Assembly: GCA_946408385.1 (NCBI GenBank)
Contig: CAMJSB010000005.1
Location: 22,435-86,434, forward strand
Length of the DNA: 64,000 nt
DNA from: an uncultured bacterium
Lineage (GTDB): Bacteria; Patescibacteriota; Gracilibacteria; Absconditabacterales; Absconditicoccaceae
Reading direction: 5' to 3'
Position numbers and translations under genes: made by a program. Below are positions 44,157 through 59,645 of this stretch, in pieces. The first letter of the stretch is position 1. Each line of letters opens with the position of its first letter. Under the pieces are notes generated by a model. The model saw only the letters and a list, made by a program, of their open reading frames with translations, was not told the DNA's origin and ran no database searches.

Positions 44157-44228
44157 CAGGGCTGGCAAGAATCGAACTCGCGACGCGCGGCTTTGGAGAC
44201 CACCGCTCTACCTCTGAGCTACAGCCCT
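44157..44228 (-). tRNA. trnW: tRNA-Trp (anticodon CCA)
   Basis: AGGGCTGTAGCTCAGAGGTAGAGCGGTGGTCTCCAAAGCCGCGCGTCGCGAGTTCGATTCTTGCCAGCCCTG; acceptor AGGGCTG/CAGCCCT, loop CTCCAAA; 3' CCA not encoded. Confidence 0.93.
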
Positions 44229-56677: not shown

Positions 56678-57187
56678 TTACAACCAATTTTCAACTGTTT
56701 CTTTTGCTTGATAAACTGAGCTACCACGAATAGCTAATCAATCCAAAACTTCAGCTCATTTGCAGAGATTTTTTAATTGACCTGGAACTCAAGCTAAACC
56801 AGAACCTTCATGAGTAGTAAATGGTCTAACGATTTTTCACTCCCAGTTAAGTTTCTCTAATTGAGTAACCATTGGTTGAGGTAATTGTCATCGATAGATT
56901 GGTCCTCATACATAAATCACTTCGTAATCATCAATACTTTCCAAAGTATTAACTATTTCGGGCCTTTCGTCATTATCAATTTCTTCTTGAGCTTCTTTGA
57001 TGCAAGTGGCATAATCTTTGGCATAAGGAGTTTTTCTCTCCACTTTGAATAAATCTGCTCAAGCTAATTCCTGGATATATTCAGCGATAACTTCTGTATT
57101 TCATTTCTCTATATATCCAACTCCATAATTTTCGTCAGCTCTAGAGAAGTAAATCACGATACTTTTTTTGTCTTTTAAGTCAGTCAT
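56678..57187 (-). CDS. Flavodoxin-like protein
   Basis: SIVIYFSRADENYGVGYIEKGNTEVIAEYI...YEVIYVGGPIYRGQLPQPM. Confidence 0.8.
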
Positions 57188-57272
57188 TGAGTTCTTAGTT
57201 AAGCAAATAAATCTGAATAAAGAATATGGGAAAATGGAGAAATTACAATATTTTTTTAAATGGAGGATTTAT

Positions 57273-57300
57273 TTGATTTTTGAGAAAATATTGATATAAG
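57273..57300 (+). promoter_or_regulatory. Promoter TTGATT-16-TATAAG upstream of structured RNA
   Basis: tTTGATTtttgagaaaatattgaTATAAG. Confidence 0.5.
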
Positions 57301-57306
57301 GAAAGA

Positions 57307-57458
57307 GCCAACCAAATTTTACCTAAGAAACTTTTTAGTCGGTTTTTTAGTTGCTATATGAAGACGATTGGTATTATCGTTTTCTTCATTAGCAGCTGAA
57401 AAGCTTAGGTAATCTAGAAATTTGGTTTGGCGACTCGGTAATATCAGTCGTCTTTTTT
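57307..57458 (+). ncRNA. Structured RNA/leader upstream of the methyltransferase-nuclease pair
   Basis: Outer stem CCAACCAAATTTTACCTAAG / CTTAGGTAATCTAGAAATTTGGTTTGG; inner AGTTGCTA/TAGCAGCT and ATGAAGACGAT/ATCGTTTTCTTCAT; terminator GGCGACT...AGTCGTCTTTTTT. Confidence 0.6.
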
Positions 57459-57466
57459 AATATGAA

Positions 57467-57508
57467 AAAATAGTTCGGCTGATTACTTTTAGTCGCTAAA
57501 CTATTTTT
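57467..57508 (+). terminator. Second hairpin directly before the methyltransferase start codon
   Basis: AAATAGTTcggctgattacttttagtcgctaAACTATTTTT. Confidence 0.6.
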
Positions 57509-57511
57509 AAT

Positions 57512-58531
57512 ATGTGAAGAAATATAAATTTACAAAATGCAAAAGCTCAAAAGAATGATGAATTTTATACACAATTACCAGATATTGAAAATGAATTAAG
57601 ACATTATAAAGAACACTTTAAATGAAAAACTGTACTTTGTAATTGTGATGACCCCAGAGTAAGTAATTTCTTTCATTATTTTGCATATAATTTTGAGCAA
57701 TTAGGACTAAAAAGACTAATTACAACTTGTTATAAAAATCAAAATCCAAGTCTTTTTACGACTAATGAAAGTGAAAAAGCAGTTTATCTGATATATAATT
57801 GAGATAAAAATTGAAATAATATTCCAGATATGAATGAAATTTGAGTTCATAATTTAAAATGAGATTGAGATTTTAGAAGTGAAGAATGTATAGAACTTTT
57901 GAAACAAGCTGATATTGTAGTTACAAACCCACCATTTTCATTGTTCCGTGAATACATATCGCAATTAGTAAAATATGAGAAAAACTTTTTGATATTGTGA
58001 AATATGAATGCTATTCCTTATAAGGAAGTTTTTCCATTAATAAGAGATAATAAATTATGGACTTGATATGGTTTTAATATGTCTATGGTATATAAAACAA
58101 CGTATCCAAATTTATTAGAAGCTAATCGTAAATTTGTGATTTGAAAATGATATAATCCAGATGACTGATATGTAAAAGTTCCAGCTATTTGTTGGTTTAC
58201 AAACCTAGATATAAAGAAAAGACACGAAGATTTGATAATGTATAAAAAATATAATCCAGAAGAATATCCCAAATATGATAATTACAATGCAATAGATGTA
58301 AATAAAATTTCTGAAATTCCTATTGATTATGACTGAGTAATGTGAGTTCCTATAACATTTTTGGATAAATATAATCCAAAACAATTTGAATTATTGTGAA
58401 TTTGAACAGGAGATAGTGCAAAAGAATTGTGAATACAAAAAAATTATAGATGAAGAACTGATTTAGCATATACAAAGAATTGAAAGTCTTCTTGTCCATT
58501 TTCTCGTATTTTAATTCGCCGTAAAAAATAA
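57512..58531 (+). CDS. EcoRI-type adenine-specific DNA methyltransferase
   Basis: NDEFYTQLPDIENELRHYKEHFKGKTVLCNCDDPRVSNFFHYFAYNFEQLGLKRLITTCYK...ADIVVTNPPFSLFREYI; 340 codons. Confidence 0.85.
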
Positions 58532-58559: not shown

Positions 58560-59645
58560 ATGAAAATTGAGTTAAAAGAAATCCCTATTCGTGATTTGGT
58601 AAAGTGATACAAAGACGATGCTGAAGCTTGAGTAAGAGGTTATGACTGAAAACTTGATATTCGTCCTCCGTATCAGAGAGAATTCATTTATAACGATGTC
58701 CAAAGACAAGCCGTAATTGATACGATTACGAAAAATTTCCCTTTGAATGTGATGTATTGGGCTGTTCGTGAAGATGGGACTTATGAAGTGATAGATGGTC
58801 AGCAGAGAACGATTTCCATTTGTCAGTATATCAATGGAGATTTTGCATATATGATGAAATATTTTCACAATCTGCAACCAGATGAACAAGAAGAAATTCT
58901 GAATTATAAATTGATGATTTATTTTTGTAGCGGAAAAGATAGTGAAAAATTGGAACGATTTAAAACTATCAATATCGCTTGAGAAAAACTTACAGACCAA
59001 GAACTCAGAAATGCAGTTTATGCAGGAAGTTGGGTAAGTGATGCGAAAAGATATTTTAGTAAGACAGGTTGTCCAGCTTATTGAATGGCGAAAGATTACT
59101 TGAATGGTAGTCCGATTCGTCAGGATTATTTAGAAACTGCGATTGATTGGATTTCTAAGTGAAATATTGATGTTTATATGGCAAATCACCAGCACGACCC
59201 AAATGCGAGTGCGTTATGGAGATATTTTCAAGATGTGATAACTTGGCTTGAATCTATATTCACACATAAACGCAGTAAATTTATGAAATGAGTGGATTGG
59301 TGAGCTTTGTATAATAAATTCAAAGACCAAATTTATGATACAAATAAAGTAGAAGAAGAAACAGCAAAGCTGATTTTGGACGATTCAGTTGGGAATAAAA
59401 AATGAATTTATCCATATATTCTCACTCGTGACGAGAAATATTTAAATATTCGTGCATTTACTGAATCCGAAAGACAAGCTACGTATTTGAAACAAGATTG
59501 AATTTGTGCTAAATGTGGAAAACATTTCCAGATTGAAGAAATGGAAGCCGACCATATCACTCCACGAAGTCAGTGAGGTCAGACTGTTTTGGAAAATTGC
59601 CAAATGCTTTGTAGGGATTGTAATAGGAGAAAAAGCGATAAATAA
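58560..59645 (+). CDS. DUF262 (ParB-like) + HNH nuclease
   Basis: RPPYQREFIYNDVQRQAVIDTI...YEVIDGQQRTISICQYI...ERFKTINIAGEKL; C-terminal [46 protein letters not shown]. Confidence 0.88.

Follow-up and report, generated by a model that had tools for sequence, protein, structure and literature searches.

A promoter and a strongly folded RNA were found directly in front of a methyltransferase-nuclease pair in the window, the stretch of 64,000 nucleotides analysed here, and the locus raises the question of whether this RNA governs the pair or works apart from it. The RNA was judged to be, with fair probability, a cis-acting two-state 5′ leader of the restriction-modification (R-M) operon, which would be attenuator-like and would belong to a new structured RNA family. 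The pair was classified by PADLOC as type II R-M and the upstream flavodoxin gene was found to be divergent. The organism uses code 25, in which TGA is read as glycine, and this sets the bounds of the methyltransferase and the nuclease (Table 1).

Table 1. Features of the leader RNA and of the genes that follow it, with positions in the window.
Feature	Position	Strand	Description	Support
Sigma70-like promoter	57273..57300	+	-35 TTGATT 57273-57278, 16-nt spacer, -10 TATAAG 57295-57300	Position fixed in 53 copies
Conserved RNA unit	57306..57458	+	Runs from the inferred start of transcription through the first U-tract	Covariance models R1/R2, covariation
P1a, 5′ strand of the closing stem (GCCAACCAAATTT)	57307..57319	+	Partner 57419-57431	Self-pairing permutation, compensatory changes
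P1b, 3′ strand of the closing stem (AATTTGGTTTGGC)	57419..57431	+	With the adjoining GACT, partner of P1a or D	
P2/P3, inner hairpin	57340..57403	+	Presents strand I	Minimum-energy fold; analogous hairpins in other copies
I, inner strand	57360..57379	+	Complementary to the RNA 3′ end; 17-20 bp with I′	Predicted dG -25.4
I′, 3′ strand of the pseudoknot helix	57436..57455	+	Continues into the U-tract	Pairing permutation, covariation, energies
Local terminator-like hairpin	57429..57458	+	GGCGACT/AGTCGTC + T6; competitor of P1 and I:I′	dG -8.4
D	57491..57503	+	Complement of P1b+GACT (57423-57435, 13 bp); inside the 3′ arm of H2	Permutation support
H2, hairpin with U-run	57466..57508	+	3 nt separate its end from the methyltransferase ATG	
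EcoRI-type adenine DNA methyltransferase	57512..58531	+	Code 25	PF13651 E = 3.2e-139; PADLOC MTase_II
GmrSD_N + HNH restriction nuclease	58560..59645	+		PF03235 1.9e-18, PF01844 3.4e-15; PADLOC REase_II 2.9e-133

The promoter, the closing stem, the inner arm, the terminator-like hairpin and the second hairpin named in a preliminary description of the locus were all recovered, and the strong RNA structure that it proposed was borne out both by energy and by covariation among homologues. The 222-nt region was predicted to fold at -71 kcal/mol as compared with -41.1 ± 4.0 kcal/mol for dinucleotide shuffles (z = -7.45, 0/200). When 53 copies were aligned without gaps on their GCC, the promoter was found to contain TTG at -34 to -32 followed by the presence of TAnnnT at -12 to -7; this fixed placement indicates that the window promoter does not owe its resemblance to chance. 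Ahead of it lies a direct repeat of 24 nt whose units are 75% alike (window 57232-57281). No promoter-like site was found in the 61-nt spacer between the window RNA and the methyltransferase gene (best score 3.4, p = 0.84 against shuffles, the genuine promoters of the RNA scoring at least 5.1); the preliminary description had named a promoter between 57458 and 57512 as a finding that would speak against its reading, which is therefore not refuted on this point.

The conserved fold is, on the comparative evidence, a pseudoknot in which the closing stem P1 is interlaced with the I:I′ helix just 5′ of the U-tract. P1 was found to contain the consensus GCCAAA../..TTTGGC and begins with the very first nucleotides of the RNA, which it closes. 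I:I′ comprises 12-17 bp across the family, I being located 53-69 nt ahead of the point where P1 ends and I′ made up of the nucleotides that immediately precede the U-tract. In an alignment of 57 rows, including two spurious antisense rows, 93.2% of the cells were found to be paired as compared with 70.1% after shuffling (0/500) and 35-52% with the partners slid, followed by the presence of 380 doubly changed, compensated cells against 108 and a covariation score of 0.614 against 0.197. The alignment was fitted to I:I′ and not to P1, which makes P1 the unbiased half of the covariation test. In unaligned sequence, P1 paired with itself over a mean of 14.3 bp as compared with 7.5 bp between copies (0/20000 permutations), and I:I′ likewise gave 0/20000. 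In the I:I′ helix all 15 aligned pairs were found to be changed on both sides, and its predicted energy ranged from -17.7 to -30 kcal/mol in 53 of 53 copies. The conserved nucleotides were mostly paired.

The GGCGACT/AGTCGTC hairpin of the preliminary description is not the conserved core: the conserved partner of its 3′ arm was found to be the inner strand 57360-57379, and a hairpin of this type was stable (dG <= -4) in 35 of 53 copies and weak or absent in the remaining third. The terminator hairpin is an optional feature that competes with I:I′. A straight P1-P2 stack would exceed the short linker, and in the model I:I′ may form either alongside P1 or in place of P1.

The source genome was found to contain four copies of the RNA, one of which is the window unit. 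A DNA search revealed a second copy, flanked by gyrA and a zinc-ribbon gene, whose inner and 3′ segments are those of the window unit but whose closing stem differs, and further copies then turned up in relatives. A first covariance model, built from 13 copies, matched 26 of the 353 genomes of the class, and a refined model (E <= 0.001) gave about 92 copies in 42 of the 353. Of 380 genomes sampled across the phylum, the source genome and one other (G537) alone were matched, and G504 was gained with a third model trained on the diverged set. Both of these out-of-class genomes use the standard code, with genes free of in-frame TGA, and the RNA is therefore not limited to recoded genomes. The family is, to judge from these models and the searches below, undescribed and present at about 100 sites in about 44 genomes of tiny host-dependent bacteria; the genomes are MAG-based, and the counts of copies and genomes are minima since searches over 40 genomes used strict filters. 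Low-score R1 matches in G188:C25, G058, G049 and G027:C2 were judged spurious, and antisense matches on palindromic arms were left out. The pattern TTTGGCGAC-N-GTCGTCTTTT was also searched in genome and viral contigs; most of its approximately 80 matches were attributed to chance, with no GCCAA 91-124 nt upstream and an inner complement of up to about 10. The genuine ones were found only in SR1-type genomes and no viral match qualified.

At the gathering threshold, none of the 4227 families of Rfam 15 was found over the RNA, the T-box model included, and the sole match in the window was a tRNA at 44157-44228. When the region and ten related loci were searched under relaxed settings, nothing credible was matched over the RNA units, in agreement with the earlier statement that no known riboswitch or T-box is present. 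No report of the RNA was found in the open-licence literature, and PMC8040213 makes no mention of the lineages that bear it.

The units are about 125-165 nt long and each was found to contain its own promoter, followed by the presence of a U-tract in every copy examined. These properties would also suit a stand-alone small RNA that acts in trans, ends at the first U-tract and is encoded beside the genes it serves. Tandem arrays point the same way, the largest holding six complete units (P1 and I:I′) at a spacing of about 260-290 nt (L174:5814-7340 in G159:C39), with shorter tandems in L176, L177, L178 and L179, as do the two f22 copies (G167:C5) whose downstream gene is preceded by a promoter-like site separate from that of the RNA (p = 0.000 and 0.037 relative to shuffled sequence). 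The arrangement of the downstream genes, however, makes this account unlikely. The next gene was co-directional in 44 of 45 cases in one set and in 36 of 39 in another, some of the exceptions being contig ends or weak matches, whereas the upstream genes lay either way. The distance from RNA to gene was 8-174 nt for the 70 genes kept for analysis, and in the shortest leaders the 8-37 nt from U-tract to ATG contained neither the space nor the score for a promoter. The I strand varies among the copies of one genome while its self-complementarity is kept, so that a common antisense target is not indicated. At f22 loci, including L151 (G167:C5), a second hairpin after the RNA was found to repeat I/I′ (GCGATTATC..GATAATCGC followed by a T-run); a general copying of I in the downstream spacer was weak overall (44/5000 permutations) and clear in some f22 copies only.

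The RNA is predicted to begin the transcripts of R-M, surface and mobile genes. Among the downstream genes tested against Pfam, those of R-M were found to encode EcoRI-type methyltransferases, N6/N4 DNA methylases (G004, G107 and G150), a ResIII/HsdR-like protein (G204), a Mrr_cat protein (G206) and a MmeI-type enzyme (G537), and the others pilin-like, SLH, Fib_succ_major and zinc-ribbon proteins and a serine recombinase; in G504 a recombinase was recognised by sequence likeness. The idea of an attenuating leader for the toxic nuclease is borne out in so far as a cis-acting leader is the likeliest reading, and not as to specificity for such a nuclease, since pilin, secreted-protein, zinc-ribbon and recombinase genes are also preceded by the RNA.

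The RNA was found upstream of 24 of the 26 EcoRI-type methyltransferase (PF13651) genes in TGA-recoded genomes of the class and of 0 of the 9 in standard-code relatives (exact test about 8e-7, relatedness ignored), the carriers including variants with a quite different, still self-pairing P1. In three of the nine standard-code relatives (L235, L241 and L246) a HTH_3, C-protein-like ORF ends just before the methyltransferase gene. The methyltransferase leaders contained strand D after the U-tract, which also matches P1b and vies for P1; over the 24 leaders P1b:D paired over a mean of 14.6 bp with self as compared with 9.2 bp across copies (0/20000 permutations). A hairpin with a U-run was found to abut the ATG in most of them, with differing sequences. 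In the window P1b:D and H2 are mutually exclusive because D lies inside the 3′ arm of H2. The nested folds of the window, with the pseudoknot ignored, were predicted at -66.5 (P1a:P1b) and -68.2 (P1b:D), and P1a:P1b would be preferred until D is transcribed. In the four window-type f1 leaders tested P1b:D came within 2 kcal/mol of P1a:P1b, whereas in the f14/f22 leaders it was preferred by 2-13 kcal/mol, I:I′ not counted, and did not overlap H2; the polarity of the switch may therefore vary between lineages.

Two sets of mutually exclusive helices are thus found, P1a:P1b against P1b:D and I:I′ against the terminator hairpin. A constitutive 5′ element, whose fixed, non-switching fold confers stability on the mRNA or alters RNA polymerase, would likewise be promoter-proximal and strongly folded. 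The put/EAR antitermination RNAs modify RNA polymerase and have terminators downstream, which the terminator-like U-tracts found here resemble. Two exclusive sets with covariation or permutation support would be needless for a single fold, however, and such an element is considered improbable. Still less is to be said for an element acting at the level of DNA, such as a palindrome, a protein site or the end of a mobile element: the unit does move with mobile genes and recur in tandem, but its orientation to promoter and gene is fixed and its pairs are interlaced. G-U pairs were moreover common in both helices, the U8-G186 pair being present in 50 of 54 rows, which argues for pairing of RNA on the + strand rather than a DNA palindrome. 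The flavodoxin gene (window 56678-57187) was found to flank the R-M cassette in G000 and G004 (L007) and not in G006 and G007, and the cassette with its RNA therefore seems to travel as a unit. A role of the RNA as guide or cofactor of the HNH nuclease, suggested by a distant likeness of that domain to the HNH of IscB/Cas9d, was rejected as highly improbable, as only an HNH stretch of 57-58 residues matched, far below the cut-off, most copies precede non-nuclease genes, and the nuclease is itself whole, a type II enzyme of GmrSD_N-HNH architecture.

For the preferred two-state leader, the fold, both of its alternatives, the promoter, the co-directional gene and the lack of a further promoter between RNA and gene in the window can be read directly from the DNA. 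Transcription would start 1-2 nt before P1a, as the promoter geometry implies, and the nascent RNA would form P1-P2 and the interlaced I:I′, ending at the U-tract. D and H2 would be made next, with H2 and its U-run abutting the ATG. Two strands would have a choice of partner, P1b between P1a and D and I′ between I and the terminator arm GGCGACT, so that the leader is predicted to possess mutually exclusive states; these would determine the level of transcription or translation at the methyltransferase-nuclease genes. The likeliest mode would be a transcription attenuator, with U-tracts placed after I:I′ or the terminator hairpin and again after H2. A translational component at the ATG is possible. 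The earlier argument that H2 leaves no room for a normal ribosome-binding site is void, as a Shine-Dalgarno-like motif was found in 0 of the 49 predicted genes of the window. In 57 genes, positions of about -25 to -17 relative to the ATG were found to be rich in T, a possible translation signal of the lineage; the U-tracts of short leaders coincide with this zone and could serve translation too.

For hard-to-grow, host-dependent bacteria, in which little is known of gene regulation, this would be a family of regulatory RNAs strongly supported by comparative evidence, and it would be attached to genes used to meet other cells and foreign DNA. More tentatively, the leader may sense a signal, possibly in the manner of a riboswitch, and gate or delay expression until a cue arrives; among TGA-recoded Patescibacteria it would have assumed the role of the controller proteins of R-M systems, and mobile genes for defence, surface proteins and recombinases would have carried it into relatives that use the standard code. 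A switching leader common to unrelated R-M types would be an added way of restraining a toxic nuclease. In the two R-M reviews consulted the regulators are proteins, DNA methylation, antisense RNA and hairpins, and the words riboswitch and leader RNA are absent.

Among known systems, the attenuators of the trp/his type with alternating segments and the riboswitch platforms share with the present family a promoter-proximal leader in cis with its gene, exclusive helices that share strands and U-tract hairpins before the gene; the U-tract was always present here, the local hairpin was good in the 35 copies mentioned, and H2 with its U-run precedes the ATG in most methyltransferase leaders. Unlike trp/his, no conserved leader peptide was noticed in the family, an ATG-led frame over I being present in L004 and L005 and missing in L006, and unlike riboswitches and attenuators the leaders contain no Rfam aptamer, possess an interlaced P1/I:I′ core and are shared by unrelated genes. 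The ToxI-type antitoxin RNAs (type III) are likewise pseudoknot RNAs, at times repeated in tandem, with a terminator and a gene after them, but differ in their units, which here measure about 125-165 nt and carry a promoter each; no ToxN-like endoribonuclease was found among the 24 downstream proteins scanned with Pfam, and no reverse transcriptase, as expected of a retron, among the downstream genes scanned. RNA control of R-M has been described, by antisense RNAs in the EcoRI and Eco29kI systems and by hairpins at nuclease starts (PMC3874152, PMC12707154). Common to both is regulation through RNA of type II R-M operons, among them ones with an EcoRI-type methyltransferase, whereas antisense transcripts and simple hairpins are used there and a sense-strand structured leader common to unrelated R-M types is found here. 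The controller (C) proteins occupy the same slot just upstream of the methyltransferase, as the HTH_3 ORFs of the standard-code relatives do, whereas in the recoded genomes the RNA is found in the place of the protein, and we infer that it may functionally replace the C proteins there.
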